DNA from: Natronosalvus amylolyticus
Lineage (GTDB): Archaea > Halobacteriota > Halobacteria > Halobacteriales > Natrialbaceae
Direction of reading: 5' to 3'
DNA: 64,000 nucleotides
Assembly (NCBI RefSeq): GCF_024298845.1
Contig: NZ_CP101156.1
Location: forward strand, 2,294,001-2,358,000
The position numbers and the translations under genes are program-made. The notes beneath the pieces were generated by a model. It made no database searches and had not been told where the DNA came from. It worked only from the letters and a program-made list of their open reading frames with translations. Shown here piece by piece: positions 19,762 to 46,410 of the stretch. Positions within the stretch are counted from its first letter, which is position 1. Each line of letters starts with the position of its first letter.

Positions 19762-22700
19762 TCACTCCCTTTTACGGAGACCTAACATGCCAGCTGCCAG
19801 AAGGGCGAGTACTGCGGTGATGAAACCGAACCCGGGCAAGCTGTCGGAGCTTCCACCATCGTCGTCATCGCTGGTAGCCATTTCGTCGTCTTCGTCGCTC
19901 TCGCCCTCAACGGCGTCATCGCCATCTCCGTCATCATCATCATCTGCGTCGTCCTCATCGCTGTCGTCCTCGTCGCTGTCGTCCTCGTCGCTGTCGTCCT
20001 CGTCATCTGCGTCGTCCTCATCGCTGTCATCTTCATCCGCGTCGTCCTCATCGCTATCGTCCTCATCGCTATCATCTTCGTCGCTGTCGTCCTCGTCGCT
20101 GTCGTCCTCGTCGCTGTCGTCCTCATCGCTGTCATCCTCGTCGCTGTCGTCCTCATCGCTGTCATCCTCGTCGCTGTCGTCCTCATCGCTGTCATCCTCG
20201 TCGCTGTCGTCCTCATCGCTGTCATCCTCGTCGCTGTCGTCCTCATCGCTGTCATCCTCGTCGCTGTCGTCCTCATCGCTGTCATCCTCGTCGCTGTCGT
20301 CCTCATCGCCGTCACCCACCGCCGATTGCCACTCGAGTTCGGGATACGATTCAGTTAGCAGCCACGTCGTCTCGAAATCGAGCGCAGACATGTTTTCCCC
20401 AGCGGCGTCACCGATCATTTCGGTCGTCTCGAGGCCGGTAACTCCGTCGTAATCACCGTCGCTACTCGCGGTCGATTGTCCAGTGGCGTCGATATCCCAG
20501 TACGACCCGGTCACCGAACCGATCTGATAGGCAACGAGTCCCCCGTTGTCGCTCGAGCCGTCGACGGTCCCGGTCGCGTAGGAATTGATTACGTCACCGC
20601 CGTTCTGGCCCACGAGGCCGCCGAGCCCTTGTGAGCCCCAGGCGCCGGTAACGTCACCCGTCGCGTACGACTGGCTGATGGTACCGTCGTTTTGCCCGGC
20701 GAGTCCGCCACCGTTGAAGACGTTAGATTGGAGGAAGACGTCGGCACTCGAGAACGATTGGGTTACGTTCCCCTGATTGCTCCCGACCAATCCTCCTGCA
20801 CGGTTGGTCGTCCCGGTAACGTCTCCACTCGAAGACGCTCGGTGTATCTCACCGGTGTCCGTGTTCCGACCCGCAAGTGCGCCCGTCGGAGTCGATCCGG
20901 TGATGTCGACGTCCTCGAGGTGGACGTTCTCGATCATCCCGCCGTTCTGGGAGAACAGGCCGACGTCCATCGAGCCGTCGATTGTGAGCCCGTTGATCGT
21001 ATGGCCAGCCCCGTCGAAGTGACCGGTGAAGCCGTCGAAGGAATCGCCGACCGGTTCGAATCCGTCGCCATCGTTCCACTGCCCGGTGAGACTGGCACCG
21101 ATGTCGCTCCCCAGGACATAGTGGGCGTCGGGATCGGCGTTCATCGCTTGCAAGTCGTGATCGTCCTTGATGACGTAGGGGTCTTCGGGAGTCCCGTCGC
21201 CATCCATAGCATCGAGAACCGCATCCACGTCATCCGGGGCTTCGGGGCTTGGATCGCTGAACGTCGAGGCAACTGACACCATGCCGGTCGAGCTGTCGTT
21301 CCCGGCAATGACTTCATAGAGGTACTGTTCGCCGTGCTCGAGATCGTCGGTCTCGAGCGTCACGGCCACGTCGTAGGTTTCCCCTGGGCCGAGGGTGACT
21401 TCTTGGCTCTCGAGAACGGTGCCGTCAAAGTGAATCTCGACCGTTCTAGTGCTCGATTCGCTGGCGACGTTCTCGACGGTTGCTGAAATGCTGACCTCGT
21501 CGCCCGGTTCGTCGATCTCGATTGACGTTGACAGGCCGCTCACTTCGAACGCGACGGGGTCGTCCTCGTGTTCCACCGCGATGTGTCCAAGGGTGCCGAG
21601 TTGGACCCGTGAATCCACGCTGGAACCACTCACGCCTGCTTTCAGAGCGTACAGGTTCCCATCATCACTGCCGATATAGACGGTCCCATCAGCGACCGTC
21701 GGTGACGAGTAGATCGAGGAGTCCGTTGTGTAGTTCCAGATGTCGGAACCGTCAGCGGCGTCCAGGGCGTAGACAGTTCCATCCCCGCCGCCGACATAGA
21801 GGGTGTCATCGGCGACCGTCGCTGACGAGTAGAACCAGGAATCCGTCGTATAGTCCCACACGTCGGATCCATCGTCGGCATCGAGTGCGTAGACGGTGCC
21901 GTCGTAACTCCCGACGTAGACGGTGCCCTCGGCAACCGTCGGGGTCGAATAGACCGAGCCATCCGTCATCACGTCCCATAGTTCCCTCCCGTCGTCGGCG
22001 TCGAGCGCGTACACGGAACCGTCGTAACTCCCGACGTAGACGGTGCCATCCGCAACCGTTGCCGACCCCTCCGAGTACCAGCCAAGTCCGTCGAAATCCT
22101 GGTGCCACTGTTCGACGCCGGTCTCGAGATCGATGGCATACCAGTTCTCGGTCGCCTCACCAGCGTTGTGGTCGTATCCATGGGCACCGGCGTAGATCGT
22201 CCCGTCGTCGATCGTCGGCGACGGACTGATCAGGTCGCCATCGGTCTGGAAGCGCCACAGTTCGGTTCCCGTCTCGGCATCGAGCGCATACAGGTTGCCA
22301 TCGTTACTTCCGGCAACGACGATCCCGTCTGCGACCGACGGTGACGTAAACACGACGCCATCCGTCTCAAAGCGCCACGCTTCCGTCCCGTTAGTGGCGT
22401 TTAGCGCGTAGATGTTCCCGTCGAAACTCCCGATATAGACCGTCCCATCCACGACGGCCGGCGACGATTGAACCGATTCGTTGGTCTCGAAGCTCCATAG
22501 TTCCGTTTCGGTGTCCGTATCGATCGCATAGATGGTGTCGTCATCGCTGCCCACGTAGGCAACGCCATCGACCACCGTCGGTGAAGAGAACACGCGCTCG
22601 TCCGTCGTGAACTGCCACATATCTGTCTGCAACGCAACCGACTGGGTGGTCTCTTGCCCATCAACGCCGATTTCCACATCAGTCTCCGTCACCGCCCCGT

Positions 22701-24993
22701 ACCCGTCCGCATTCGCACGCAGGTGATACACTCCTGCTCGAGCCTCGAGGTGATAGGTTCCATCCGCGTCGGTTTCGGTTGTGGCGACGAGCTCATCGCC
22801 CTCGAGGAGCTGGACGGTTGCGCCGTCGAGCGCGAGTTCACCGCTCGGGTCGGTTACCGTCCCAGTGATCGTCCCGTTCTCGTGGATGGCGATCGGTCTC
22901 GTTGTCTGAGCAGTGTGTCCGCTCTCGTCTTCGACCTTCAGCGTCACGTCGTAGTTGCCCCGCTCGTCGAACGAGTGGCTTGCCTTGGGATCGGTCGTCG
23001 TTTCGTCGACGGTGCCGTCACCGGTGAAATCCCAGCGATACTCGACAATGTCGTCGGTTGCCGTCGAGTAGCCCCCATCGACGGTGAACGGCTCGCCCGG
23101 TCTCGGAGGCATCGGTTCGATAGCGAAGGAGGGGACCACCGTGTCGTATTCGTGGTGACCCAACGCCTGCTGTAAGACACGTGAATCGGTACTCGAGCCC
23201 GCCGGTGCGGCGTACAGTGCGTACAGGTGATCGTCGTTACTTCCGACGTATACGACGCCATCGACGACCGTCGGTGCGGAGCGAACCTCGTGGTCGGGTT
23301 CGAACGTCCACGCGATGGTTCCGTCGTCGGCGGAAATTCCGTGGACTGCGCCGGTGTTTGCGTTTCCGTCGTAGCTCCCGACATACACCATCTCGCCCAT
23401 CACCGTTGGCGAGGTGACAGAGCCGTGTGTCGTCGTACTCCATTTTTCTTCACCAGTTTCTGGATCGATCGCGTACAGGGTATCGTCGTAGCCACCGAGG
23501 AAGACCGTTCCATTGGCCACCGTCGGCGATGAACTGATCAGGCCCCCCGTCTTGAATCGCCACTCTCGCTCTCCAGTGCTGGCGTTCAGGGCATACAGAT
23601 GGTCGTCCCAGCTTGCAACGTAGACGGTTTCATCGACGACGGTCGGAACCGACGTGACAAGACTCCCCGTCGTGTAATTCCACTGCTCGGTGCCCGTCTC
23701 CGCCTCGAGTGCAAAGATCTTCCCGTCGTAGTTGCCGATGTAGACCGTGCCATCTACCACGGCCGGCGCGGTGTTTCTGAACTCTCTATCCGTGGAGACG
23801 TTCCACTTCTCCGTCCCATTGTCCGCATAGACCGCGTAAATGTGCTCATCGCGACTAGCAGCGTAGACGACTCCATCTTCGACCGTCGGCGAGGTGACTG
23901 AGCCGTCAGTCGTATAGTTCCACTGCTCGGTTCCATCGGCCGCATCGACAGCGTACAGGTTGTCGTCGTCGCTGCCAAAGTAGACCGTGCCGTCGACGAC
24001 CGTCGGTGCATCGCCTACTGGGCCGCCGATGTCGGTGAAGCGCCACAGCTCCGATCCGTCGGTAGTGTCCACCGCGTACACGTATCCTTCGCTGGTGTGG
24101 GCTCCATAGCTCCCGATGTAGGCAACCCCATCGACGACCGTGGGTGCGGCAACGACCGATCCATCGGCGGAGAAGTTCCACAACTCAGCGCCCGGCTCCG
24201 TTGGCAGGGGTTCGTACACGTACGGGAATTCGACATCGATTGTCTGGGTCGTCGTATCGGTTGTGCCATCCGGCTCGATGACCGTCAGCGTCACGTCGTA
24301 CTCGCCAGCCGCATCGAAGACATGGGCGAGTTCGGGGTCGGTCGTCGTTGTATTGATCGACGGATCACCCGTCGAGTTCCACTGATAGGTGACGTCCGCG
24401 GGTGTCGATGCACTCGCATCCAGCGTTACCGGCTCGCCTTCAACTGGAGCTGTGGGGGTGACATCGAACGACGCGTGCAATGGCTCGGAATTGAGTTCGA
24501 CGGCGTCTGTCAGTCCTTCGCCCTCGTAACTGGCCCCATCTTCGTCACCGATCGACTGAACCGTCACCTCGAGGTTCGAGAGCCCTTCGTCAGTGACCTC
24601 GAGCGTGCCGGTCGCGATGACGATTTCGTCCTCAGTCGCCGTGAGCACGTCATCACCGTACACGATATCCAGGGTACCGGTTCCGTCGTCTATCACCGGC
24701 TCCTCGGTTTCGTACAACGGTTCGCCGGCCGGTTCGACCTCGAGGAGCGCTGTGGTCTCGGTGTTCGAGAGGTCGATCTCCAGCGCGTACGCCCCGACAC
24801 TATCAGCATTTTCCACGACTATTTCGTAGTCGACGGTCTCTCCGACGTCGACACGCGTCTCGTCGACCGAGACGTTCACGGCGATTTCGTCCTCGGAAGC
24901 GGCGAACGCCCCGCTCGCCAGCAGGGCTGTACACCCGATCACCACGAGAAGAATGAGCGTCAGACTCGCCAGGTAATGTCGTGACTGGCTCAT
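19762..24993 (-). CDS. surface protein with cohesin-like domain, PKD, two PQQ propellers, GLUG repeats and PGF-CTERM
   Basis: A 1743-aa exported protein. After a signal peptide (1-31) comes a cohesin-like domain (about 33-175; recognised from VDVGETVDYEIVVENADSVG, AYALEIDLS and the ATGTLEV strand), then PKD (about 175-261), a PQQ beta-propeller (about 263-608), a second PKD (about 618-704), a carboxypeptidase-regulatory-like domain (about 706-789, GTVTDPSG core), a second propeller (about 791-1114), a CARDB domain (about 1148-1248), a region of GLUG motifs (about 1251-1531, GGLVGxNxG units), a long DEDDS tract and a PGF-CTERM signal. The start codon overlaps the stop of the dockerin gene (ATGA), indicating translational coupling. 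The cohesin could dock the partner's dockerin outside the cell (inference). The tail duplicates that of the 1661-aa gene. Confidence 0.88.
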   Translation of the reverse strand: MSQSRHYLASLTLILLVVIGCTALLASGAFAASEDEIAVNVSVDETRVDVGETVDYEIVVENADSVGAYALEIDLSNTETTALLEVEPAGEPLYETEEPVIDDGTGTLDIVYGDDVLTATEDEIVIATGTLEVTDEGLSNLEVTVQSIGDEDGASYEGEGLTDAVELNSEPLHASFDVTPTAPVEGEPVTLDASASTPADVTYQWNSTGDPSINTTTTDPELAHVFDAAGEYDVTLTVIEPDGTTDTTTQTIDVEFPYVYEPLPTEPGAELWNFSADGSVVAAPTVVDGVAYIGSYGAHTSEGYVYAVDTTDGSELWRFTDIGGPVGDAPTVVDGTVYFGSDDDNLYAVDAADGTEQWNYTTDGSVTSPTVEDGVVYAASRDEHIYAVYADNGTEKWNVSTDREFRNTAPAVVDGTVYIGNYDGKIFALEAETGTEQWNYTTGSLVTSVPTVVDETVYVASWDDHLYALNASTGEREWRFKTGGLISSSPTVANGTVFLGGYDDTLYAIDPETGEEKWSTTTHGSVTSPTVMGEMVYVGSYDGNANTGAVHGISADDGTIAWTFEPDHEVRSAPTVVDGVVYVGSNDDHLYALYAAPAGSSTDSRVLQQALGHHEYDTVVPSFAIEPMPPRPGEPFTVDGGYSTATDDIVEYRWDFTGDGTVDETTTDPKASHSFDERGNYDVTLKVEDESGHTAQTTRPIAIHENGTITGTVTDPSGELALDGATVQLLEGDELVATTETDADGTYHLEARAGVYHLRANADGYGAVTETDVEIGVDGQETTQSVALQTDMWQFTTDERVFSSPTVVDGVAYVGSDDDTIYAIDTDTETELWSFETNESVQSSPAVVDGTVYIGSFDGNIYALNATNGTEAWRFETDGVVFTSPSVADGIVVAGSNDGNLYALDAETGTELWRFQTDGDLISPSPTIDDGTIYAGAHGYDHNAGEATENWYAIDLETGVEQWHQDFDGLGWYSEGSATVADGTVYVGSYDGSVYALDADDGRELWDVMTDGSVYSTPTVAEGTVYVGSYDGTVYALDADDGSDVWDYTTDSWFYSSATVADDTLYVGGGDGTVYALDAADGSDIWNYTTDSSIYSSPTVADGTVYIGSDDGNLYALKAGVSGSSVDSRVQLGTLGHIAVEHEDDPVAFEVSGLSTSIEIDEPGDEVSISATVENVASESSTRTVEIHFDGTVLESQEVTLGPGETYDVAVTLETDDLEHGEQYLYEVIAGNDSSTGMVSVASTFSDPSPEAPDDVDAVLDAMDGDGTPEDPYVIKDDHDLQAMNADPDAHYVLGSDIGASLTGQWNDGDGFEPVGDSFDGFTGHFDGAGHTINGLTIDGSMDVGLFSQNGGMIENVHLEDVDITGSTPTGALAGRNTDTGEIHRASSSGDVTGTTNRAGGLVGSNQGNVTQSFSSADVFLQSNVFNGGGLAGQNDGTISQSYATGDVTGAWGSQGLGGLVGQNGGDVINSYATGTVDGSSDNGGLVAYQIGSVTGSYWDIDATGQSTASSDGDYDGVTGLETTEMIGDAAGENMSALDFETTWLLTESYPELEWQSAVGDGDEDDSDEDDSDEDDSDEDDSDEDDSDEDDSDEDDSDEDDSDEDDSDEDDSDEDDSDEDDSDEDDSDEDDSDEDDSDEDDSDEDDSDEDDADEDDSDEDDADDEDDSDEDDSDEDDSDEDDADDDDDGDGDDAVEGESDEDDEMATSDDDDGGSSDSLPGFGFITAVLALLAAGMLGLRKRE
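19790..19921. repeat. 132-bp exact duplicate of 241-372
   Basis: Second copy of the identical PGF-CTERM-encoding stretch; the first mismatches are at 19789 and 19922. See the copy at 241-372. Confidence 0.9.
20101..20310. repeat. 30-bp higher-order tandem repeat in acidic tract (7 copies)
   Basis: Seven consecutive 30-bp units; the five from 20131 to 20280 are exact, the first differs by one base and the last by its final base. Each unit holds two synonymous but different codings of the same five residues (DEDDS), so the unit of amplification was 30 bp rather than the 15-bp protein unit. Less regular 15-bp units continue to about 19960. Confidence 0.92.
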
Positions 24994-26525
24994 TTTACTC
25001 GCCCCCCCGTGACCAGAGCGTACAGCGCTTCGACGTCCGCCTGCGTTACGTCGTCGGGATCTCCACCCGAGAAATTGAACTTCTCGGAGTGTGCGGTGAA
25101 CACCTCGTCGTCGAGATGTTGGTGCATCGCCTGCACGTCGACGACGGTTGCCCGTCCGTCCCCGTTAATGTCCTCGAAAAGGCCATCCCCGTTCAGATCG
25201 TTAGGTGGCTTTTCAAACGGCCCGATCGGATCGGGCCGGGTGTCGAAGACTTGCAAGATTGGATAATCGCCGTCGGGTGCGAGCACCGTGGCCCACGTCT
25301 CCGTGAAATCTAGTTCTACCATCTCGAACTCCGCTGAGGCGCCTTGCATATCCGGCTGGTCGACACCGTACACCGTGCTCGAGCCACCGTCTTCGTCACC
25401 GATGCCCTGGTCGTTGCTCCAAGCGTTGTAGTACACGTTGACGATACTCGAGGTATTGAGCCCGGCAACCCCGCCACCGTCGAACGGGAAGTCGTCTGCC
25501 TGGCCCGCAGAATACGCCTGTTTGATCTCAGCGTCCCCCGTGTTTTCGCCCACCAGCGCCCCAACGTAGACATCGTCGTTGTTGGTGTTGCGAAATGCAG
25601 GTGAGAGCGCGAAGGATTTCTCGATCAGGCCCAAATCCGTATTGACGCCGACTAGCCCACCGAAACCGGATGCCCAATCCCTGGTGTTTGCTCTGTCACC
25701 CGTACTGTAGACATCGCTGTAGGCGTACGTGATCTCGCCAGTGTTGGTTCCTACCAGGCCACCGATGGACGAACCACCGCCCGAGACGGAGAAGCCATCG
25801 GCATACGATCTCGTGATCGTCCCAGTGTTTCGGCCGACCAGCCCACCCACGTGGTGTCCGCAGTTGACGCTCATCGACGAGTATGAATCCGAAATCGTCC
25901 CGTCGTTTTGACCGACGAGTCCACCGACACGTTCGGAATCGAACTGGCGCGAATCCGCCGTATCGATCTCGATCGTCCCACTCGCATAGCAGTTCACGAT
26001 ATCGCCACTCGAGCGACCAACGAGCGCTCCCACGTCAACCGTCGCGTCAATGTCGGCATCAGTGACACCGAGATTTTTGATCTCGCCGTCGGCAGAGCCG
26101 AACACGCCGATATCGAACTCGTTACCCGCGTCGGTTCGTTCGATGACCATATCTGCGATCTCGTGTCCGCTTCCATCGAGCGTCCCACTGAAATCACTGA
26201 TCGGATCCCACCCTTCCCCGTCGTTCGCCGTCTCGGATGCGTACTCGTCGTAGTCCACCGTATCCGAATCCAACGTTGTCGTCAGTACGAACGCACTGTC
26301 CGGATCCGACCGAACGCTATCGAGATCTGCCCACGTCTCGATCTCGTACGGATTGTCTTCACTTCCATCGCCGCCACTGGTGTCCGCTCGAGTGAGCCGG
26401 CTCACACCCACGAACAGACCCGTCAGTCCAACCCCAATCGTCGAGAGGGTCGCCCGCCTCGAGAAGTGTCGATTTCGTGTTTCTCGAGGAGACGAATCCG
26501 TGTCGTTCCCCTTTGGTAGAGACAT
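24990..26525 (-). CDS. Tat-exported GLUG-repeat protein with C-terminal dockerin-like domain
   Basis: 511 aa. The N-terminus has SRRATLSTIGVGLTGLF, a twin-arginine signal. Residues about 55-120 are a domain found before GLUG repeats, and about 130-400 carry at least six GLUG motifs (for example VGGLVGQNDGTISDSYSS). The C-terminus (about 440-505) is dockerin-like: a first calcium-loop segment DINGDGRATVVDVQAM with the Dx[DN]xDG pattern, and a second, weaker loop around NFSGGDPDDVTQADVEAL. There is no membrane anchor, so retention at the surface could rely on docking to the cohesin of the next gene, whose ATG overlaps this stop codon. A TATA box lies about 23-30 bases before the start, suggesting a leaderless mRNA for the two-gene operon. 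GLUG motif function is not known to me beyond occurrence in surface proteins. Confidence 0.88.
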   Translation of the reverse strand: MSLPKGNDTDSSPRETRNRHFSRRATLSTIGVGLTGLFVGVSRLTRADTSGGDGSEDNPYEIETWADLDSVRSDPDSAFVLTTTLDSDTVDYDEYASETANDGEGWDPISDFSGTLDGSGHEIADMVIERTDAGNEFDIGVFGSADGEIKNLGVTDADIDATVDVGALVGRSSGDIVNCYASGTIEIDTADSRQFDSERVGGLVGQNDGTISDSYSSMSVNCGHHVGGLVGRNTGTITRSYADGFSVSGGGSSIGGLVGTNTGEITYAYSDVYSTGDRANTRDWASGFGGLVGVNTDLGLIEKSFALSPAFRNTNNDDVYVGALVGENTGDAEIKQAYSAGQADDFPFDGGGVAGLNTSSIVNVYYNAWSNDQGIGDEDGGSSTVYGVDQPDMQGASAEFEMVELDFTETWATVLAPDGDYPILQVFDTRPDPIGPFEKPPNDLNGDGLFEDINGDGRATVVDVQAMHQHLDDEVFTAHSEKFNFSGGDPDDVTQADVEALYALVTGGRVK

Positions 26526-26547: not shown

Positions 26548-26555
26548 TATTTATA
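26548..26555 (-). promoter_or_regulatory. TATA box of the dockerin-cohesin operon
   Basis: Read on the minus strand, TATAAATA is centred about 26 bases before the ATG at 26525. With archaeal spacing the transcript would start at or next to the start codon, i.e. leaderless. Confidence 0.6.
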
Positions 26556-29332: not shown

Positions 29333-32300
29333 ATGATTGGGGTCGATCTCAGCCGTCGAGACGTGTTACGATCAGGTCTTCTGGGGACCGTCGGCGCGGC
29401 CAGCGGTGTGATCGGAACGGCTACCGGCACCGAATCGGCTGGTAGCACGGGGATGGATGTCACCTTGATCCCGGCTGATGGCGATTTTGGATTCAACTAT
29501 CCGTACTATCTGTACGCGCCTGCCGTGGAAGACGCGTTCGACCGACCGATTCTCGTCGAGCCGAACAACACCGGGAGATCCACGAACAACTTCGACGCAC
29601 ACCGTGAGTCTGCTGAGCGATTGATCGAACACGGGACCCCCAGGCGGATCGGTGACGAACTTCGTGTGCCGGTTCTCGTTCCGGTCTTTCCGCGCCCGTC
29701 CTCGAGTCCGGTCGATTGGCAACACTACGTCCATGCGCTCGATGCCGAGACGATGCAGATCGATTCCGGCGATCTCGAGCGCGTAGACGAACAGCTCTTG
29801 CGCATGGTCGAGCACGCGCGAGAACGCCTTTCAGAACGGTCCTATCCCGTCGGCGAAGACATGATCATGAACGGCTTTTCGGCGTCGGGGACCTTCGTCA
29901 ATCGCTTCACCGCCCTCCATCCCGATCGCGTCCGGTCGGTGACTGCCGGCGGTATCAACGGCACCGCAACCTTGCCCCTCGAGGAGGCTGCGGGACGGAC
30001 GGTAGATTTCCCAATCGGTATCGCCGACCTCGAGTCACTCACCGGCGAGGCGTTCGACCGTGACCAGTGGCAGGCCGTCGACCAACTGGTCTACATGGGT
30101 GGGGACGACGAGAACGATACGATCCCCTACGACGATGCCTGGAATTCGGGCCAACGCGAGATCGCCCTCGAGGTGTACGGCGAGCACATGCAAAACGACC
30201 GGATGCCCTACTGCAAGTCGGTCTACGAAGAGGCTGGTGCGACCGGTCGGGTCGAGGTCTACCCCAATATTGGGCACCGCCCCGTCACCGAGGAACTCAT
30301 CGCGTTCCACCGGAAACACGTCGTCCCCCAGTTCGTCGGGTTCGCCGAGCCGCCGGCGATCGGCGAGGAGACGGTAACCGTTCTCGCACGAGCCCAGGAT
30401 ACCCAGGCGTACGAACTGCGCGTTTTCAGTGACGAACGCGGCGAACTCACAGATGCTGTGCGGGAATTCGACCCTGCTGTGGACGACCACGTGCAAGTCC
30501 AGTTGGCGACGCCGCTCGCTGACGGCGAAGACGTGACCGTCGGCCTGTTCGAGCCCGGGAGTGCCAATCAGGGGGCAGCGCTAGCGTCGGAGACCGCCAC
30601 CGTCCACGGGAAGGTAGCGTTCGTCGAGACGCCGGTCGCCGGAGACGAGACGGTGACGATAGCGTACGATCTCTCGACGGTGTATCCGGTTCGAGAGCAG
30701 GCAACGCTCCGTCTCGACACCGAACAGGGCGGAGCAAGCGAGCTGACAGCACTCGAGCCAGGTACCAACGAGACGGTCACCCTCCCTCTCGAGGCAGACG
30801 AACACGGGGTCCCGCTCGAGCAAGGACGGGAGGTGACTGCAACAATCGTCGATGCCGACCCACAGGGTCTCGATCCGGTGGCGACCGACACGAGAACGAT
30901 CGGGGCACCAGCCGAGCCAGCGCTGTCGATCGATGTTGACGTCGAGCGGGCCGTGCTGGCTGGTGAGGCTGTTACTGTCGAGATCGCTGTTCGGGTGATC
31001 GGGGGCGATTCGGACGACCTGACTGATCTTCCGATCGAGTGTGCGGTTGAGGGCGATGTCGTCGACACGGTGACGGTCTCACCATCGGTCGGGGAGACGG
31101 AAACGATCGCTCTCAGCGTTCCCACCGATGGATACGACCGAGACGAACTGACGGTCAGCGCCACCTGGGGAGAAACGACCGACGAGGAGACGGTTATCCT
31201 CGCCACTCAGCCCGCAAATGGGGACGGAAGCGCTGGTGATCCATACCGGATCACCGACGGAACCGAACTCGCGTACGTTGACTTCGATCTTTCCGCCCAC
31301 TTCGAACTCGCCGAAGATATCGACCTCTCCGGATTCGAGCGGTTCGTTCGGATCGGGAGTCTTCGAGAGCCGTTTTCCGGAACCTTCGATGGCCGACAAC
31401 ACGAGATCACCGGAGTCCATATCGAGGAATCCGTCGATCAGTTCGAAGGGATCGGGCTGTTCGGCAACCTCATTGGGGGCTCGATCGAAAACGTCCACCT
31501 CGTAGACGTACACGTGACCGGTGACGATTTCGTCGGCGGCGCCGTCGGGATGGCCCAGGCACCCGCAGAGATTTCCCGCGTCACCGTCTCCGGAACCGTC
31601 GTCGGCGGGGACAACGTCGGCGGGATCATCGGCGGGACCTCCACCGGCGAGGACGGCGAAGACGTCGTCATCTCCGAGACCGCTTCGGACGCGAGTGTGC
31701 AGGGAGAACGAAAGGTTGGGGGCATCATGGGTCAATCCTCCGGTGACCGCATCACGAACTCCTATGCGAGTGGTTCGGTCAGTGGACATCGCGACGTCGC
31801 CGGCGTGCTCGGACTCAACGTCTTCGGCGGGGTTGTCAGCACGTCTTACGCCAGCGCCACACTCGAGGGTGATGGCGGGGGACTCGTCGCGAATAATCCG
31901 GAGGGCAGCGTCACCGACTCCTACTGGGACGTCGACGCGACAGGAATATCGATCTCTGATGGCGGTGCCACGGGGTTGCGCACTGAGGAGATGACCGGTG
32001 ACGATGTCGTGACTACGCTGTCGGGCTTTGACTTCGAAGAAACGTGGGCGGTGACCGACGAGTATCCCGTACTTGCATGGGAGCATGCCTTCTCAATCCA
32101 ACAACTTTCGGAGTTGGATACACACGTCGTCGGCGAACCAGTTGAGGTGACGGTCACCGTGGCCAACACCGGGCCAACGGCGATTGAAGAAACCCTCGAG
32201 TTCCGGTTCGCTGGCGAGGTCGTCGAGCGCCGACCGATCTCGTTGGATGCAGACGAGTCGACTACCCTCGAGTTCGAAGCCGATACCGACGGCCTCGAGA

Positions 32301-32881
32301 GAGGCGTACACGAGTACGGCGTGGCCCACCGCACGGCCAGCGTCACCCTCATCGACGCGGATAGCCCAGTGTTCGAACTCACCGACGTTGCCTTCCTCGA
32401 ATCCGTCGAGAAAGATACCGAGCCATCCCTCTCAGTGACGATTCGGAACCTGGGGGTAGCTGATGAGCAAGCAGTCGTCGTCAGGGTGACCGACGACTCG
32501 GGAGACACCGTACTGAGCGACAGGCTGATTGAAGCCTCACTCGAGAGTGGCGAGTACCTCGAGCGGACGTTCTTCCTCGACACGGCAGAACTCTCAATTG
32601 GGGAGTACGAACTCACCGTCGAAACGGACGATGACGACTATACACGCACGTTTGAGGTTCAAGACACCAGTGACGACGATGCGGAGACGTCGTACGATGA
32701 CAGTGTGACCAGGCCAGACGACAGCGTGACCCAGGATGATGACAGCGGTTCTCGGGATGTTTCCGAGGCAGACGACCAGACCGGATTTGGATTCGGAAGT
32801 GCCCTCGCAGGGATCGCTGGAGTTGGCTATCTGCTCAAACGACGAATGAGTTCTGCTACCGATCAGGAGAACGAGTCGTGA
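29333..32881 (+). CDS. Tat-exported alpha/beta-hydrolase fused to CARDB-like domains and GLUG repeats
   Basis: 1182 aa. The Tat signal (LSRRDVLRSGLLGTVG) starts at residue 6. An alpha/beta-hydrolase domain (about 40-335) shows the nucleophile elbow GFSASG (Ser about 183) and a late His in NIGHRPV (about 315), consistent with an esterase or feruloyl-esterase-like PHB depolymerase relative; the acidic triad member is not certain. Beta-sandwich domains of CARDB type follow (about 340-620), then a GLUG region (about 624-917) paralogous to those in the 511-aa and 1743-aa proteins, two more CARDB domains, a D/S-rich linker and a C-terminal helix preceded by TGFGFG and followed by LLKRRM. The latter resembles PGF-CTERM with Thr instead of Pro. 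A surface-anchored esterase acting on polymer or glycan is inferred; the substrate is unknown. Confidence 0.85.
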   Translation: MIGVDLSRRDVLRSGLLGTVGAASGVIGTATGTESAGSTGMDVTLIPADGDFGFNYPYYLYAPAVEDAFDRPILVEPNNTGRSTNNFDAHRESAERLIEHGTPRRIGDELRVPVLVPVFPRPSSSPVDWQHYVHALDAETMQIDSGDLERVDEQLLRMVEHARERLSERSYPVGEDMIMNGFSASGTFVNRFTALHPDRVRSVTAGGINGTATLPLEEAAGRTVDFPIGIADLESLTGEAFDRDQWQAVDQLVYMGGDDENDTIPYDDAWNSGQREIALEVYGEHMQNDRMPYCKSVYEEAGATGRVEVYPNIGHRPVTEELIAFHRKHVVPQFVGFAEPPAIGEETVTVLARAQDTQAYELRVFSDERGELTDAVREFDPAVDDHVQVQLATPLADGEDVTVGLFEPGSANQGAALASETATVHGKVAFVETPVAGDETVTIAYDLSTVYPVREQATLRLDTEQGGASELTALEPGTNETVTLPLEADEHGVPLEQGREVTATIVDADPQGLDPVATDTRTIGAPAEPALSIDVDVERAVLAGEAVTVEIAVRVIGGDSDDLTDLPIECAVEGDVVDTVTVSPSVGETETIALSVPTDGYDRDELTVSATWGETTDEETVILATQPANGDGSAGDPYRITDGTELAYVDFDLSAHFELAEDIDLSGFERFVRIGSLREPFSGTFDGRQHEITGVHIEESVDQFEGIGLFGNLIGGSIENVHLVDVHVTGDDFVGGAVGMAQAPAEISRVTVSGTVVGGDNVGGIIGGTSTGEDGEDVVISETASDASVQGERKVGGIMGQSSGDRITNSYASGSVSGHRDVAGVLGLNVFGGVVSTSYASATLEGDGGGLVANNPEGSVTDSYWDVDATGISISDGGATGLRTEEMTGDDVVTTLSGFDFEETWAVTDEYPVLAWEHAFSIQQLSELDTHVVGEPVEVTVTVANTGPTAIEETLEFRFAGEVVERRPISLDADESTTLEFEADTDGLERGVHEYGVAHRTASVTLIDADSPVFELTDVAFLESVEKDTEPSLSVTIRNLGVADEQAVVVRVTDDSGDTVLSDRLIEASLESGEYLERTFFLDTAELSIGEYELTVETDDDDYTRTFEVQDTSDDDAETSYDDSVTRPDDSVTQDDDSGSRDVSEADDQTGFGFGSALAGIAGVGYLLKRRMSSATDQENES

Positions 32882-34375: not shown

Positions 34376-35122
34376 ATGAAAGCAGTCGTACTCGCCGGGG
34401 GGAAAGGAACACGACTTCGACCACTCACTGACGACAAACCAAAAGGGATGGTCGAGGTCGACGACGAGCCTATTTTGACCCACTGTTTCGACCAGTTACT
34501 CGAGTTGGGAGCCGATGAATTAGTCGTGGTCGTGGGCTATCTCAAAGAGCGGATTATTGACCACTACGGGGACGAGTATGAGGGCGTCCCGATCCAGTAC
34601 TGCCACCAGCGCGAACAGAAGGGGCTGGCACACGCGCTGTTGACCGTCGAAGAACACATCGACGACGACTTCATGTTGATCCTGGGGGACAACATCTTCG
34701 ACGCGAATCTGGGCGATGTGGTTCGTCGACAACGTGAAGAGCGTGCAGATGCAGCGTTTTTGGTCGAGGAGGTACCCTGGGAAGACGCTTCGCGGTATGG
34801 AGTCTGTGATACGAACAAATACGGTGAGATCACCGACGTGGTCGAGAAACCAGAAGAGCCCCCATCGAATCTCGTGATGACCGGCTTCTATACGTTCTCG
34901 CCCGCGATCTTCCACGCCTGTCATCTGGTGCAGCCCAGCAATCGCGGTGAGTATGAGATCAGCGAGGCCATCGACCTGTTGATTCAGAGTGGGCGCACCA
35001 TCGATGCAATCGGCATCGACGGCTGGCGGATCGACGTTGGCTATCCCGAGGATCGGGATGAGGCTGAAAAGCGGTTGCAGGAGGGGGTTGAAGGCGAAGT
35101 TGCCCTCGCTTCGGACGACTAG
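34376..35122 (+). CDS. sugar-1-phosphate nucleotidyltransferase (AglF/RmlA-like)
   Basis: 248 aa. The signature AGGKGTRLRPLT binds the nucleotide and K/D positions PKGM and GDNIF fit the nucleotidyltransferase fold that joins a sugar-1-phosphate with UTP or dTTP. The length matches short, C-terminally minimal archaeal members such as AglF, which makes UDP-glucose for N-glycosylation. The 3' end continues directly into a second, paralogous gene 45 bases on. Its place beside UDP-glucose dehydrogenase suggests a UDP-glucose to UDP-glucuronate branch. Substrate specificity cannot be read from sequence alone. Confidence 0.88.
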   Translation: MKAVVLAGGKGTRLRPLTDDKPKGMVEVDDEPILTHCFDQLLELGADELVVVVGYLKERIIDHYGDEYEGVPIQYCHQREQKGLAHALLTVEEHIDDDFMLILGDNIFDANLGDVVRRQREERADAAFLVEEVPWEDASRYGVCDTNKYGEITDVVEKPEEPPSNLVMTGFYTFSPAIFHACHLVQPSNRGEYEISEAIDLLIQSGRTIDAIGIDGWRIDVGYPEDRDEAEKRLQEGVEGEVALASDD

Positions 35123-35166
35123 AACTGTACAAGCGGTTTTTACGACTCGAGGTGAACCCCTCGAGT

Positions 35167-35877
35167 ATGCAGGGTGTTGTGCCAGCAGCCGGTGAAGGGA
35201 CCAGGCTTCGGCCGATGACTGAGCAACGACCGAAGGGACTCGTTCCGGTGAACGGTCAGCCGCTGCTCACTCATGTCTTCGAGACGTTGCTCGAGGCAGG
35301 TGTCGACGAGTTAGTTGTCGTCGTTGGGCATCTCGCCGATCAGATCATCGAGTACTACGGTGATGGCTTTCGAGAGGTGCCGATCACGTACGTCCACCAA
35401 CGCGAACAACGGGGCCTCGGCCATGCCGTGTCCCTGACTGAGCCCCACGTCTCGGGACCGTTCGTGGTGTTGAACGGAGACAACGTCTTCGTGGACGGGA
35501 TTGAGCACGTTCTTGAGCGAATGTCTGAGCCCGACGTGGATGCCGTGTTGGCCGTCGAGTCACTCGACCGAGAACAGGCAAGAGACACTGGGGTGCTCGA
35601 GGTTTCTGCAGGGCGCGTTACCGGTATCGTCGAGAAGCCCGAAAAGCCGCCGTCGACGCTGGTGACCACTGGCTGTTACGTGCTCCCCGAAGCAATATTC
35701 GATGCGCTTGCGCTGGCACAGCCATCTGATCGTGGGGAGTACGAACTCAGCGAGGCAGTTGGCCTTTTAGTTTCCGCTGGGTCAGTTGTGGAGCCCGTTG
35801 AGATAGCTGGTCCCCGAGTGAACGTTAACACGGAAGAAGATCTCGAGCGGGCAGGTCGTTTGCTCGAGGAGCGTTAG
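35167..35877 (+). CDS. second sugar nucleotidyltransferase, tandem paralogue
   Basis: About 236 aa from ATG 35167, which places the first strand (QGVVPAAGEGTRLRPMT) at the N-terminus; a GTG 15 bases upstream is possible. It shares with the preceding gene the GTRLRP loop, the HQREQ(K/R)GL(A/G)HA segment, the GDN(I/V)F metal-site motif, VEKPE(E/K)PPS and the RGEYE(I/L)SEA motif, so the pair arose by tandem duplication. The nucleotide loop differs (PAAGEG instead of LAGGKG), which may mean a different sugar or base. Likely co-transcribed with the upstream gene. Confidence 0.87.
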   Translation: MQGVVPAAGEGTRLRPMTEQRPKGLVPVNGQPLLTHVFETLLEAGVDELVVVVGHLADQIIEYYGDGFREVPITYVHQREQRGLGHAVSLTEPHVSGPFVVLNGDNVFVDGIEHVLERMSEPDVDAVLAVESLDREQARDTGVLEVSAGRVTGIVEKPEKPPSTLVTTGCYVLPEAIFDALALAQPSDRGEYELSEAVGLLVSAGSVVEPVEIAGPRVNVNTEEDLERAGRLLEER

Positions 35878-35927
35878 GTGAGTCGGTTGTTCGAGGAGTG
35901 TTAGACAAGTGGTTTTCTCAAAGAGCG

Positions 35928-36914
35928 TTAGGAGTTTCTGACCAGTGGATCGTACCAGTCTTCGTTCTCTCGATACCAGTCGATGAATTTTGCAACGCCT
36001 TCGCGGATATCCGTGGTAGGCTCGTAATCGAGCAACTCGTTGGCCTTCTCGATATTCGCGTGGGTGTGTTCGGCGTCGCCTTCTCTCGCGTCATCGAATT
36101 CAATCTCGAGGCTCGGATCGATTTCGTCGCGGATGACTTCCGCAAGAGTGAGGATATCGATGTTGTCGGTAGAGCCGACGTTCATGATCTCACCGTCGGC
36201 CCGGTCGTCCTCGAGGAGGTGTTTGTTGACGGTGAGAATATCATCGATATAGGTGAAATCACGGGTTTGCTCACCATCGCCATAAATTACTGGGGGTTCG
36301 CCATGGAGACAGCGCGAGACGAAGTTCGTCATGGCCATGTTTGGGCGCATACGCGGGCCGTAGACGGTGAAGTATCGCAAGGCGACCGTCGGAAGACCGT
36401 AGATTTCGTTGTAGACGCGTGTGTACTGTTCGGTGGCGAGTTTGGAAACGCCATACGGTGAGACTGGCGTCGTGAGATGATCCTCGTCGTAGGGGAGGTA
36501 CTCCGGCTTGCCGTACACCGAGGACGAAGAGGCGACGACTACTCGGTCGACGTCGTGCGTGCGGGAAGCCTCGAGGACGTTGATCGTCCCATCAACGTTG
36601 TAGGCGTTGACCTTCTTCGGTTCCTCGACGCTCTTTCGGACGCCTGCCTGAGCTGCCTGATGGTAGACGACATCGGTGTTGGCGACGAGGTCGTCGACAA
36701 GTTGTTCGTCGGTTATTGAACCCTCGACGAACTCGTAGGTCGTGTTGGCTTTCGTGGCGGCTTTTTTCGCCGCGTCGATATTGTGTTCCTTTATTCCGAG
36801 GTCATAGTACGGCTCGAGGTTGTCGAGAACGGTTACGTCGTGGCCGGCTCTGGTGAGATCTTCGGCGATGTGCCCGCCGATGAATCCCCCACCGCCAGTG
36901 ACGAGAATCTGCAT
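35928..36914 (-). CDS. NAD-dependent nucleotide-sugar epimerase/dehydratase
   Basis: 328 aa, extended short-chain dehydrogenase of the GalE/UDP-glucuronate-epimerase group. It starts with the cofactor loop GGGGFIG (residues about 7-13), has the Ser-containing SSSSVYG and the catalytic YGVSK (Tyr/Lys), and the family's ALRYFTVYGPRMRP and TRDFTYIDD segments. It would interconvert UDP-sugars supplied by the neighbouring nucleotidyltransferases and dehydrogenase. The UDP-glucuronate 4-epimerase subgroup is suggested by length and the RMRPNMA segment, but this is inference. It is convergent with the nucleotidyltransferase pair, 50 bp apart. Confidence 0.9.
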   Translation of the reverse strand: MQILVTGGGGFIGGHIAEDLTRAGHDVTVLDNLEPYYDLGIKEHNIDAAKKAATKANTTYEFVEGSITDEQLVDDLVANTDVVYHQAAQAGVRKSVEEPKKVNAYNVDGTINVLEASRTHDVDRVVVASSSSVYGKPEYLPYDEDHLTTPVSPYGVSKLATEQYTRVYNEIYGLPTVALRYFTVYGPRMRPNMAMTNFVSRCLHGEPPVIYGDGEQTRDFTYIDDILTVNKHLLEDDRADGEIMNVGSTDNIDILTLAEVIRDEIDPSLEIEFDDAREGDAEHTHANIEKANELLDYEPTTDIREGVAKFIDWYRENEDWYDPLVRNS

Positions 36915-37330
36915 GGACAGATACTGGTCTAGTCAGTCACAAAAACGATTGGGTTTCCACTGGTTACTGATTGGGGGTGTTTGAGTCACGTCGATGGTCA
37001 GATTTGAATGAGGGGGTTTGTAGAGTGTGTAAGCAGGTCTCGAGTAAAGTGCCACAGTTCCATTATTATTTATCGTGAGAGAAGGCCCGGTTATGTCGGT
37101 AGCCTGCTCGAGTGTCATGATATCGACATTCACTGTAAAGCCGTTAGATATATGGTTACGCTGTCAAAAAAGATGTCTGATTAGTATTGGTGAGGGTTTC
37201 GAGAGGGGGTGGCATTTGGAGTGAATCTGCTACAATAGTAAAACGGGATTGTTCATCCAGTCCTTCAAATTCCCGTTCCATTGTGTTACCAGCTTTCGGA
37301 AGAGCCACACGGAGAGAATAGATAGATTCA
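36915..37330. other. intergenic region without a supported gene
   Basis: About 416 bases upstream of the epimerase gene. Short frames exist on both strands but have no coding character or homology that I recognise. The stretch is AT-richer than its flanks and contains candidate A/T-rich promoter elements (for example around 37061-37071 on the minus strand). It may be the scar of an old element. Confidence 0.4.
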
Positions 37331-37465
37331 ATGAACAACCATAGACGTCGGGTATGCCCGAAAAAACAGTATTTCCGACAATACAAAGCCGGGGGGATGT
37401 CGGTAGAAGGCATAACCGAAGCGTCCGGTCTAGAGGTTCGAACGATGAGGTATCTAGATGAGTAA
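37331..37465 (+). CDS. possible 44-aa helix-turn-helix-like small protein or remnant
   Basis: Short frame with ATG 37331 and stop at 37463-37465. Residues about 12-44 (KQYFRQYKAGGMSVEGITEA, then SGLEVRTMRYLDE) have the spacing of a helix-turn-helix as seen in small regulators and at the N-terminus of some transposases. Its stop overlaps the ATG of the downstream glycosyltransferase by 8 bases (ATGAGTAA), which argues for translation coupling, yet the frame could be just a decayed end of a mobile gene. Confidence 0.35.
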   Translation: MNNHRRRVCPKKQYFRQYKAGGMSVEGITEASGLEVRTMRYLDE

Positions 37466-38750
37466 AGTCCAGGAATTTCAGTACACAGAAATTACTGCAC
37501 AGGATGTTCCATTCGCTCTGGGCATTCTTGGGGGTGAAGAGACATCCGAAGGTGGTCCCGATATCGGAACTCGAGCAGTAAAGGCAGGGTTTCAGGTCCT
37601 TTTGACAGAGGATCTGGGTGAAACACTTGCGACGGATATTCGGCACCATCCGAATGTAACCGTGGTAGATCCAGATACCCCGGATAAAGGATCTCGAGAC
37701 CAGTTGATTTCAGCGGCCAAAGAACGAGACCTCGAGGGGATCGTGTTTTGGAACGGGGGTTCTACACTCGATTTCGACGTCGCCAAACGCGTCCTCAAGA
37801 TATCAGGTCCGTTTGCGATTTCGACTGATTCCCTGGCCAGTCCATCGAGCTCAGGTCGGTTGATCGGGATTCCCGCCTACAATGAATCAGTCGGAATTGG
37901 GAGCGTGATTTTGCGTGCCCAACAGTACGCCGAGGAAGTCGTTATTATTGATGACGGGAGTTCCGATGACACGGTTGCAATCGCCAAACAGACAGGGGCA
38001 ACGGTTATCGAACACGGAACCAACCAGGGGAAGGGGCGGGCATTACAGACGTTTTTCGCATACGCCCGTGAGACTGAGCACGACTCGTTCGTCGTCCTCG
38101 ATGGCGATGGTCAGCATTTGCCCGAAGACATTCCAGCAGTGATCGAACCTGTTGAGAACGGCAAGTCCGATCTCGTTGTCGGCAGTCGCTATCTCGAGGA
38201 CGGAACCGGCGAAGAGACACCATTTCATCGGCGAGTCGGTCAGCAGGTATTAGATTACCTGACGTTTGGCTCGAGCGGGACCAAACTCACGGACACCCAG
38301 AGTGGCTTCCGTGCGTTTTCGCCGGATGCGGTTGATAAGTTGTCTATCCGAACTGATGGGATGGGTGTCGAAAGCGAGATGATTTCGACGGCTCAGGACG
38401 CAGATCTCGAGATGGAAGAAGTTCCCATCGATGTCCGCTATGAGGGAATCGATGGACAGACGCTGAATCCGTTACACCACGGACTGGGTGTCGCGACCTT
38501 CCTTTTGAAACTAATCCGGGATCGCCACCCCTTGATGTTCTTCGGATTACCCGGCGTGTTGATCGCAGGTGTGGGAATCGTCCTCGGGATCGATGCGGTG
38601 TTGCTCTTTAACAGCCAGGGCACATTTGCGCCAGGTCAGACGATGGTCAGTCTGTTGCTCACGGTGATCGGCAGCCTCGGCGTGTTCTGTGGGCTGGTGC
38701 TTAATCGAATGTCGAATATGATTCGAGAGTTGAAAAAGGAAACAGTATAA
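37458..38750 (+). CDS. GT2 glycosyltransferase with N-terminal extra domain and C-terminal membrane helices
   Basis: 430 aa. Residues about 15-130 form an uncharacterised, Rossmann-like N-terminal domain. The GT2 domain (about 133-330) has the start strand GIPAYNES, IDDGSSDDT, and the metal-binding LDGDGQH, with GSRYL and a QSGFRAF acceptor-site motif as in dolichyl-phosphate hexosyltransferases (Dpm1, haloarchaeal AglJ/AglD relatives). Two hydrophobic helices (about 357-382 and 393-415) anchor it in the membrane. It probably transfers the first sugar from a nucleotide-sugar to dolichyl phosphate on the cytoplasmic face; specificity is not deducible. It opens a run of + strand glycan genes. 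Confidence 0.88.
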   Translation: MSKVQEFQYTEITAQDVPFALGILGGEETSEGGPDIGTRAVKAGFQVLLTEDLGETLATDIRHHPNVTVVDPDTPDKGSRDQLISAAKERDLEGIVFWNGGSTLDFDVAKRVLKISGPFAISTDSLASPSSSGRLIGIPAYNESVGIGSVILRAQQYAEEVVIIDDGSSDDTVAIAKQTGATVIEHGTNQGKGRALQTFFAYARETEHDSFVVLDGDGQHLPEDIPAVIEPVENGKSDLVVGSRYLEDGTGEETPFHRRVGQQVLDYLTFGSSGTKLTDTQSGFRAFSPDAVDKLSIRTDGMGVESEMISTAQDADLEMEEVPIDVRYEGIDGQTLNPLHHGLGVATFLLKLIRDRHPLMFFGLPGVLIAGVGIVLGIDAVLLFNSQGTFAPGQTMVSLLLTVIGSLGVFCGLVLNRMSNMIRELKKETV

Positions 38751-38804
38751 ATAGGATTTTTAAAATGGCTACTATCACGGAAACCCCCTCAATAACTAGG
38801 ATTT

Positions 38805-40058
38805 ATGTCTGAAAGTCAACAAACCAAACACTCTATCGATGATCAAGAGGACTCTTTTAGTTCAAAAGAGGCCCCACTGGAATCCAAAACTGAGACCGAA
38901 TCTCATATCGACACATCAAAGCTAGAAGAGGATCCGGCGAACAAAGCAGCCTCTCTAAAGATACTTCGAGTCGCAAGTGATGTTTATCCGGATGTAATGG
39001 GGGGCCTTAGCCTCCACGTCCACGAAATGTCACGGTTGCAGGCAGAATGGGGTCATGACGTGACCGTGTTGACGTCCGATCATGGTGATCGAAATCTTCC
39101 CTCAAAAGAGGAGCGATCGGGGTACGAACTAATTCGTCACCGAGAGATTGCCAGTCCCTTGGATAATACCATTATTCCTGGAATCGTCCAGACGATACGG
39201 AGGATGGCTGATGACTATGATGTCATTCACGCTCACTCGCACCTGTTCTTCTCAACAAACGCTACCGCCGCGTTGAGTCGAACGCTCGACACACCGTTGG
39301 TCATTACGAATCATGGGTTAATATCGCAGACAGCTCCGAGATGGCTACAGAAGGCCTTCATCCCAACGGTCGCAAAGTTCACCTTGAATGCTGCTGACGA
39401 GGTTTTATGTTATACTGAAACGGACAAATGTCGACTTCGGGAGCGAGGAATCGATAGTTCAATTTCGATAATCAATAATGGAATCGACTGCGACCGGTTT
39501 TCGCCTGAACAAAGTGATGAATCAAAAAAGCAGATTTTGTTTGTCGGGCGGCTTAAGCCCGGGAAGGGGGTCCAAACCCTTCTTACTGCATTTGAGCAGC
39601 TTACCGCCGATTTTCCGGAATACAGTCTGAAAATTGTCGGTAACGGACCTCTACTAGACGACTTAGTTGAGATGGCCCATGAGTGTAATATTTCAACCCA
39701 CATCGAATTTGCAGGTCAGATTGAAAATAATGAAATTGGTGAAGTTTACGCTGAAAGTGAGGTGTTTGTGCTTCCGAGTTTAAATGAAGGGGTTCCGAGA
39801 ACAGTCTTAGAAGCAATGGCATGTGAAGTTCCAGTTGTCACGTCTGATCTCGACCAATTAATTCCGATTGTTAATAATGCCGGCTTTACCGTTCCGAGTG
39901 AAAGCCCAGACAAATTTCAGGCCGCTATCAAGAAGTTATTAAATGATGCAGAGCTACAAAATGAAATGGGGCGTGTAGGGCGGTCGCGTGTCAAGAACCA
40001 TTATTCTTGGAATAACACCGTGAGTGAGACTCTTGGGATCTACAAGAGTTTATTATAA
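38805..40058 (+). CDS. GT4-family glycosyltransferase
   Basis: 417 aa, GT-B fold. An unconserved, charged N-terminal 50 residues precede the first Rossmann domain (PDVMGGLSLHVHEMSR, then VIHAHSHLF and ITNHG). The C-terminal donor domain begins at ILFVGRLKPGKGVQTL and has the E-x7-E type motif in LNEGVPRTVLEAMACEVPVV. It is a retaining transferase using a nucleotide-sugar, acting in the cytoplasm on a lipid-linked glycan. It lies 54 bp after the GT2 gene. Codon and base usage drift to lower GC toward its 3' half, marking the border of the AT-rich segment. Confidence 0.9.
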   Translation: MSESQQTKHSIDDQEDSFSSKEAPLESKTETESHIDTSKLEEDPANKAASLKILRVASDVYPDVMGGLSLHVHEMSRLQAEWGHDVTVLTSDHGDRNLPSKEERSGYELIRHREIASPLDNTIIPGIVQTIRRMADDYDVIHAHSHLFFSTNATAALSRTLDTPLVITNHGLISQTAPRWLQKAFIPTVAKFTLNAADEVLCYTETDKCRLRERGIDSSISIINNGIDCDRFSPEQSDESKKQILFVGRLKPGKGVQTLLTAFEQLTADFPEYSLKIVGNGPLLDDLVEMAHECNISTHIEFAGQIENNEIGEVYAESEVFVLPSLNEGVPRTVLEAMACEVPVVTSDLDQLIPIVNNAGFTVPSESPDKFQAAIKKLLNDAELQNEMGRVGRSRVKNHYSWNNTVSETLGIYKSLL

Positions 40059-40136
40059 TGGAGTTGGTATACAGAGTTATGTTCAGTGGTATTGGTATGG
40101 ACATAGCTAATGTGGAATCAACTACTCGTGTAACCT

Positions 40137-40144
40137 TATTAAAA
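40137..40144 (+). promoter_or_regulatory. TATA-like box before the AT-rich glycan genes
   Basis: TATTAAAA centred about 31 bases before the ATG at 40172, giving a predicted leader of about six bases. The local sequence is AT-rich, so chance matches are possible. Confidence 0.4.
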
Positions 40145-40171
40145 GAGCGGAATGGCACTGTAACATAAAAT

Positions 40172-41086
40172 ATGAGCGAGAAAGTCAGTATTATCATACC
40201 AACATATAACCGGGCAAAAAGATTAGGGAATGCGATAATTAGTGTATTATCACAAACACATACAAATTATGAACTCATAATTATTGATGATGGATCAACA
40301 GATAATACGGAAGAATTGGTCGGTTCTTTTTCGGATAGGAAGATAGTATATGAGAAACATTCAAAAAATAAGGGTGTTGCAGAAGCTAGAAATACTGGGC
40401 TTGATATTGCGTCTGGAGAATACATTTGTTTCCTTGACTCTGATGACGAGTGGAAAAGTAATAAATTAGAAGTACAATTAAAATATACTAAAAGTTGCAA
40501 CGAAGATTGCATCGGCTCATACACCGACGTAAATATCGTAAGAGAATCGGCTTTAAAAGAGATAGCTAGCTCCCTACTTTTAGACCCGAAACAGCCAGAT
40601 AATCAGAATGCGCTAATAGTTCAACAACTTAAATTAAATGGTTTTATTCATGCAGGGTCCACATTACTGCTGAAGAAATCTGTTTGTGACAAGGTAGGTG
40701 GATTTAATACAGATTTAAATAGACTCGAGGAGGTAGAATTTGTTATTAGATGCTTGGACTACGGTAAACTCAGGTTCTTAGATAGAAAGCTAGTAACTCT
40801 ACATGATACCGGGGCTGCCGATCCAGAAGTGGAAATTAACTCAGTATACAAATTCCAGATTGCTCTTTCCGACATTATTAACCAATATGAAAAACAAGGC
40901 TATAATATACGTAGTTCACAGAATGTGTTTTTGCTGTCACAATATCTTGCATTGAGAGACTACAATAGTGCTGTGAAACATTTGCAAAATGGTAAAATAA
41001 CAAATACAACGCATATTGCCACGATACTTTATGGAGCGTATCTAGGGGTCTCCGATTTAGATTTTAAAGTATTTGATGAGATTTGA
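40172..41086 (+). CDS. GT2-family glycosyltransferase (AT-rich)
   Basis: 304 aa with a canonical GT-A N-terminus: VSIIIPTYNRAKRLGNAI, IDDGSTDNTEEL, GVAEARNTGLD and the metal-binding FLDSDDEW (DxD, about 88-95). The C-terminal third is typical of acceptor-specific variation. It is a soluble inverting transferase, probably for a variable unit of the surface polysaccharide. The coding sequence is clearly AT-rich with many Lys/Asn codons, unlike the preceding genes, which suggests acquisition from a lower-GC source. Its stop codon sits three bases before the next start, so the two are likely one operon. Confidence 0.88.
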   Translation: MSEKVSIIIPTYNRAKRLGNAIISVLSQTHTNYELIIIDDGSTDNTEELVGSFSDRKIVYEKHSKNKGVAEARNTGLDIASGEYICFLDSDDEWKSNKLEVQLKYTKSCNEDCIGSYTDVNIVRESALKEIASSLLLDPKQPDNQNALIVQQLKLNGFIHAGSTLLLKKSVCDKVGGFNTDLNRLEEVEFVIRCLDYGKLRFLDRKLVTLHDTGAADPEVEINSVYKFQIALSDIINQYEKQGYNIRSSQNVFLLSQYLALRDYNSAVKHLQNGKITNTTHIATILYGAYLGVSDLDFKVFDEI

Positions 41087-41088
41087 AT

Positions 41089-42738: not shown

Positions 42739-42854
42739 TGATGCTCGGTATTAGGTAACTCTGCCTCATCGAAGGCACCGTAGATCCACTTGCCTTCTAA
42801 TTGAAGGACGTGACCGTTCCATTCCAATCTAATGTTGCCACCAACCTTATTATT
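42735..42854 (-). pseudogene. 3' remnant of an unidentified gene
   Basis: On the minus strand 39 codons are open, ending at a TAA that overlaps the stop of the convergent membrane-protein gene, with a protein-like composition (for example NIRLEWNGHVLQLEGKWIYG). There is no start codon and the 5' end is cut by a stop at 42855-42857. It may be the tail of a gene removed when the adjacent insertion sequence arrived. The family is not recognised. Confidence 0.3.
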
Positions 42855-46388: not shown

Positions 46389-46410
46389 GTTATGACTTGA
46401 TTGACTAATA

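Follow-up and report, generated by a model that had tools for sequence, protein, structure and literature searches.

The window analyzed here, a stretch of 64,000 nucleotides, carries two overlapping genes on its minus strand, and the question that they raise is whether their products are a cognate pair, in which a surface-anchored cohesin protein retains a soluble GLUG protein at the cell surface through a calcium-dependent dockerin. In the absence of binding data, we think it very likely that they are. A sequence-only reading of the locus had described the first product as a Tat-exported GLUG protein with a C-terminal pair of calcium loops. The protein and its Tat-like leader (SRR) stand, but only one of the loops is good and the other is degenerate. 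Both loops, the Sec-type signal peptide of the second protein and, with no signal-peptide predictor, the Tat-like signal were assigned from sequence alone. The first gene and its two boundaries have the following features.

24990..26525, minus strand: dockerin gene, 511 aa, with a Tat-type leader, a GLUG beta-repeat body and a C-terminal dockerin
26382..26468, minus strand: Tat-like signal SRRATLSTIGVGLTGLFVG, residues about 20-48
25236..26378, minus strand: GLUG repeat region, residues 50-430 (Pfam Glug, 73.9 bits)
25011..25235, minus strand: dockerin module, residues 431-505 (Dockerin_1 below cut-off, and kinship with haloarchaeal dockerins)
25137..25172, minus strand: calcium loop 1 DINGDGRATVVD, canonical
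25035..25076, minus strand: calcium loop 2 NFSGGDPDDVTQAD, degenerate, with a two-residue insertion
24990..24993, minus strand: ATGA overlap of the dockerin and cohesin genes; the junction reads ...AAAATGAGCC
26548..26555, minus strand: TATAAATA box, about 22 nt ahead of the ATG of the GLUG-dockerin gene

Both ORFs are present and the junction is as the earlier reading described it, and we infer that translation of the two genes may be coupled through the ATGA. The location of the TATAAATA box so close to the first ATG suggests one leaderless transcript spanning both genes, which is likewise an inference. The two predicted partners each have a strongly acidic composition (net -39 and -14), a point that counts against the proposed binding.

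The dockerin of the window scores 14.2 bits against Dockerin_1 (PF00404; cut-off, 22.9), and only its first loop is matched. Haloarchaeal dockerins related to it pass Pfam (L040, 35.1 bits; L037, 24.5 bits; L157, 40.5 bits), and its identity to other haloarchaeal dockerins reaches about 65-70%. Despite its own score below the cut-off, the module is identified as a dockerin by its kinship with these Pfam-passing relatives. Within its tandem calcium loop-helix motifs, the degenerate loop 2 lacks the canonical spacing. When the window's genome was searched with a dockerin profile, this dockerin was the single match. The GLUG proteins most closely related to that of the window (L036:11048-14387 and L144:9295-10266, in G027) have a duplicated tail, TDGLRDAIDNWRGGEIDTDLLRDVIDAWRSGDPV, instead of a dockerin. 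A tail of this type, which also occurs on a cohesin-like protein, is possibly another docking module.

The second gene had been read as one whose product starts its mature part with a cohesin-like domain and ends in PGF-CTERM. Its features are the following.

19762..24993, minus strand: anchored cohesin gene, 1743 aa
24898..24993, minus strand: Sec-type signal peptide, residues 1-32
24469..24897, minus strand: cohesin domain, residues 33-175 (Pfam Cohesin, AF2, and Foldseek)
21180..24468, minus strand: two PQQ-type beta-propellers, PKD domains, and a carboxypeptidase-regulatory-like domain
20340..21186, minus strand: GLUG region of the cohesin protein, residues about 1270-1551
19948..20307, minus strand: acidic DSDEDD repeat, probably a wall-spanning spacer
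19768..19851, minus strand: PGF-CTERM sorting signal, residues 1715-1742 (TIGR04126)

Against Pfam Cohesin (PF00963) the domain scores 24.0 bits (E 4.9e-5; cut-off, 24.1), and in the genome-wide search it scores 21.5 bits, also under the cut-off. No cohesin was retrieved when the cohesin profile was run against the sequences of the PDB, and a comparison of folds was therefore needed. For structure prediction the domain was first aligned with 33 relatives, mostly haloarchaeal. The best 45 PDB fold matches of the resulting AlphaFold (AF2) model (pLDDT 88.5, pTM 0.83) are all cohesins (Foldseek, E 6.4e-8 to about 2e-5), and the cohesin 2xdh of Archaeoglobus fulgidus is among the fold matches (E 1.1e-5). 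The model and its matches meet the criterion of a cohesin beta-sandwich (jelly-roll) fold, and it is this predicted fold that secures the identification of residues 33-175 as a cohesin. At the other end of the 1743-aa protein, TIGR04126 scores 25.6 bits (cut-off, 24.5). The window's genome also encodes archaeosortase A (ArtA, 321.7 bits), so both criteria for a substrate of this enzyme, a C-terminal PGF-CTERM and ArtA in the genome, are met. The description of this protein is thus borne out at both ends. The sequence-only reading had also called for HMM searches with PF00963 and PF00404, and had named as grounds for refutation the lack of any cohesin or dockerin match or fold. The searches leave both window modules under their cut-offs, but refutation does not follow, given the cohesin fold matches and the dockerin homologs that pass Pfam.

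To place the pair in a wider setting, 146 Halobacteriales genomes, at least 90% complete, were searched with cohesin and dockerin profiles. Matches to the cohesin profile occur in 58 of these genomes and matches to the dockerin profile in 65; 55 have both, 3 only cohesin, 10 only dockerin, and 78 neither (P = 6e-26 for co-occurrence). This P value overstates independence because related genomes are counted separately. A dockerin gene is directly followed by a cohesin gene in 43 of the 146 genomes, where the median gap between the two domains is 169 bp and the cohesin lies in the next reading frame; the expectation for this order under random placement is about 0.0002 per dockerin. The adjacency was tested on loci fetched by dockerin sequence alone, leaving out those that had trained the cohesin profile. 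In this held-out set, 11 of the 32 genes lying next to a dockerin gene on its 3′ side are cohesin genes, compared to 6 of 401 elsewhere (P = 5e-10).

Distances among dockerins and among cohesins are also correlated across 39 gene pairs (Mantel r = 0.73, P = 1e-4), although shared ancestry inflates this result as well as the symmetry values given below. The nearest relatives of the window dockerin and of the window cohesin are found in the same two loci, one from Natrarchaeobius chitinivorans (L055) and one from Halorubrum vacuolatum (L056). The likeness of L055 extends to both members of the pair, with 36% identity in the GLUG-dockerin protein and about 39% in a propeller-bearing cohesin protein. 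The dockerin of L056 is 70% identical to that of the window, yet its protein carries propellers and lacks GLUG, while in the window the propellers are on the cohesin protein. Conservation thus lies in the pair of modules, whereas the cargo is exchanged. The proposal that the anchored cohesin holds the neighboring GLUG protein is therefore supported, in the absence of binding data, by what we observed: two genes that are the sole profile-detected dockerin and cohesin in their genome, the predicted cohesin fold, the dockerin homology, the anchor signal together with ArtA, the recurrent gene order, the co-occurrence, the correlated distances, and a close relative of the whole pair in Natrarchaeobius.

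The absence of a visible enzyme, which the sequence-only reading had noted, holds for the window pair but not for many sister cassettes. The enzymes encoded by cohesin-adjacent dockerin genes include PhoX phosphatase (L147, L154), subtilases (L041, L049, L039), and GH5 cellulase (L087/L141), and the remaining cargo includes propellers (L056, L152), a 5′-nucleotidase-like protein (L149), GLUG (window, L055), and others. In the two loci scanned for it, PhoX with a cohesin-dockerin tail is followed by an anchored cohesin of roughly 250 aa. The frame lengths and spacing of this cassette are repeated in many other surveyed genomes. This is a hint, though no proof, that no other cassette is as common. 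Longer chains occur in Haloarcula and Halomicroarcula (L072, L083), where a dockerin is followed by two proteins, each combining a dockerin with two cohesins, and then by a three-cohesin protein.

Among 116 non-redundant dockerins, covariation between the halves is seen at the loop-helix positions 9, 10, 11, 14, 17, and 18 (z 4.7 to 9.8) and is absent at 8, 15, and 16. The internal symmetry of the family is strong, with z of 8.5 at position 10 and 9.8 at position 11. In bacterial type I dockerins, recognition positions lie around 10-11 and 17-18, and the covariation is the pattern that would be expected of dockerins able to bind via either half. The dockerins of the window, L055, and L056 are asymmetric, and the halves of the window dockerin differ at positions 10 and 11 (VV versus QA). 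From the asymmetric halves and the degenerate loop 2, and without binding data, we infer that this subgroup probably binds in a single mode, not in the classical dual mode.

The cohesin fold of the neighbor, the recurrent adjacency with unrelated cargo, the co-occurrence, the correlated distances, and the covariation of the dockerin halves at exposed positions all argue against a tail that is merely a calcium-stabilized cap or a carbohydrate-binding tail, lying beside an unrelated adhesion domain in the neighboring beta-sandwich. We regard this explanation as unlikely, even though type I dockerin has been taken as substrate binding in haloarchaeal papers (PMC10963439, PMC13260240) and the window dockerin is a weak Pfam match with one degenerate loop.

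It also seems quite improbable to us that the two modules bind other partners, be it another cohesin for the dockerin or, in cell-cell contact, the dockerin of another cell for the cohesin. The GLUG and propeller bodies do look adhesive, and elsewhere in the window's genome there is an orphan 284-aa cohesin-like protein of another subgroup with a PGF-CTERM-like end (L002:1282-2136). It has no dockerin gene in the fetched locus and is one of several single-domain cohesin-like proteins whose presence does not follow that of dockerins. However, the one match of the dockerin-linked cohesin profile in this genome is the window cohesin and not the orphan. As a group, the Pfam-visible cohesin-like proteins, which served as a control, are not associated across genomes with dockerins of the window's kind (20/37 versus 45/109 genomes, P = 0.19), and the dockerin and cohesin genes of the window overlap in translation. 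Two further genome matches to Pfam Cohesin, L003 and L004, were set aside as weak (16.5 and 12.7 bits). A decayed pair, with binding abolished by the degenerate second loop and the proteins held by other means, can hardly be credited: the spacing of loop 2 is not canonical, but both reading frames are intact, and loop-2 insertions or asymmetric halves are likewise found in the adjacent pairs L039, L055, and L056.

Because the two genes of the window lie in different frames, a joint model of the two modules was sought in a sister locus, L041 of Natronoglomus mannanivorans, where both genes share one frame and the TGA between them was read through. Both modules are modeled confidently (pLDDT mostly above 90), the linker is low, and the pTM is 0.66; the cohesin part matches cohesin structures, several of them from cohesin-dockerin complexes. 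The model comes without an inter-domain error and therefore does not prove docking, with which it is compatible.

We propose that the GLUG-dockerin protein would be exported folded through Tat, whereas the cohesin protein would leave through Sec, have its PGF-CTERM processed by archaeosortase A, and receive a lipid anchor, from which the long acidic repeat would act as a spacer. Outside the cell, the dockerin with calcium would bind the cohesin and so keep the soluble GLUG protein on the surface, where it would decorate the cell next to the propellers in a structural or adhesive role. Coupled translation may supply the two proteins in matched amounts. Of these steps, the binding, its calcium dependence, the retention, and the adhesive role are inferred.

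Non-cellulosomal cohesin and dockerin modules of archaea are reportedly known from Peer et al. (2009). In Archaeoglobus fulgidus the cohesin and dockerin genes are neighbors, and the window resembles this archaeal, non-cellulosomal system also in the fold match of its cohesin to 2xdh. It differs in the Tat-type GLUG-dockerin protein, in the propellers and PGF-CTERM of the cohesin protein, in the gene overlap, and in a divergent cohesin subfamily that is almost invisible to Pfam. The proposed retention of a secreted dockerin protein by a surface-anchored cohesin has its counterpart in the clostridial cellulosome, and the covariation pattern of the haloarchaeal dockerin family recalls the two-faced dockerins found there. 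The window pair differs in its single cohesin, its lack of an enzyme, its predicted anchoring by archaeosortase, and the strong acidity of both partners. The window locus was ruled out as a cellulosome by its single cohesin and lack of a catalytic domain, as the criterion of a multi-cohesin scaffoldin with dockerin-bearing enzymes is not met. ANME archaea also have surface proteins with cohesin and dockerin domains, of which some combine a dockerin with as many as five cohesins, and the role proposed for them is the attachment of proteins to the cell surface (PMC9012536, PMC5244752). These archaea, however, are methane oxidizers with other cargo, and a recurrent dockerin-cohesin gene pairing is not described in the parts of these sources available to us. 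In the open-access literature, to which our claim of novelty is limited, no paper was found that deals with a cohesin domain in haloarchaea.

Only the Natronoglomus and Natronobiforma loci, whose polysaccharide clusters (PMC10963439) have the same dockerin family in the same organism class, approach a cellulosome. In the cellulase cluster of N. mannanivorans (L139:6075-12434, L140), one ORF combines a GH5 domain with eight tandem cohesins, the next gene encodes a cohesin protein of 258 aa whose end resembles PGF-CTERM (15.9 bits, under the cut-off), and about 11 dockerin proteins are encoded around these genes within 34 kb. We consider this locus a candidate archaeal cellulosome. In length, the ORFs agree with genes 2716-2722 of the species paper, in which gene 2718 is GH5/CBM6, gene 2719 is an S-layer glycoprotein, dockerin is substrate binding, and the cohesins of the cluster are unmentioned (PMC10963439). 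The eight-cohesin protein corresponds to gene 2718, and the anchored cohesin to the listed S-layer glycoprotein, 2719. In Natronobiforma cellulositropha, a GH5 protein that is truncated where its contig ends contains at least five cohesins, and a further cohesin protein, of 209 aa, has a membrane segment at its C terminus. Pfam reports none of the cohesins in these two GH5 loci, which is a likely reason why they were overlooked.

How secreted enzymes are retained near haloarchaeal cells in saturated brine is poorly known. We think it likely that a widespread and overlooked cohesin-dockerin surface display exists in haloarchaea, in which cohesins missed by Pfam hold Tat-secreted phosphatases, proteases, glycanases, and beta-structured proteins, and which in polysaccharide degraders extends to catalytic scaffoldins, that is, archaeal cellulosomes such as the GH5 protein with eight cohesins; the window pair would be its two-protein, enzyme-free version. 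If the dockerin tails so far read as substrate binding are plugs for anchored cohesins, they would provide a common and testable mechanism of surface retention for phosphatases, proteases, and cellulases in this class, and archaea would own cellulosome-like complexes. As the partners are strongly acidic, such modules could yield salt-tolerant binding pairs of practical use.

A second haloarchaeal network, in L160 and L161 (G017:C1, 466-496 kb), has Pfam-visible cohesins and canonical dockerins (GDVDGDGxVTSxDA...), with several dockerin-ended proteins and PGF-CTERM-like multi-cohesin proteins. Three contigs labeled uncultured bacterium or Bipolaricaulota (L079, L091, L092) encode single dockerin-cohesin-dockerin proteins with haloarchaeal-type dockerins, suggesting, on this resemblance, a transfer between domains of life.

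Elsewhere in the window, a divergently transcribed gene (29333-32881) encodes a 1182-aa PGF-CTERM-type protein with GLUG and CARDB domains, whose N-terminal region, judged by eye, resembles a hydrolase. At 34376-49748, glycosyltransferase and nucleotidyltransferase genes and a transposase adjoin giant surface-protein genes, and this region looks like a surface-glycan island.
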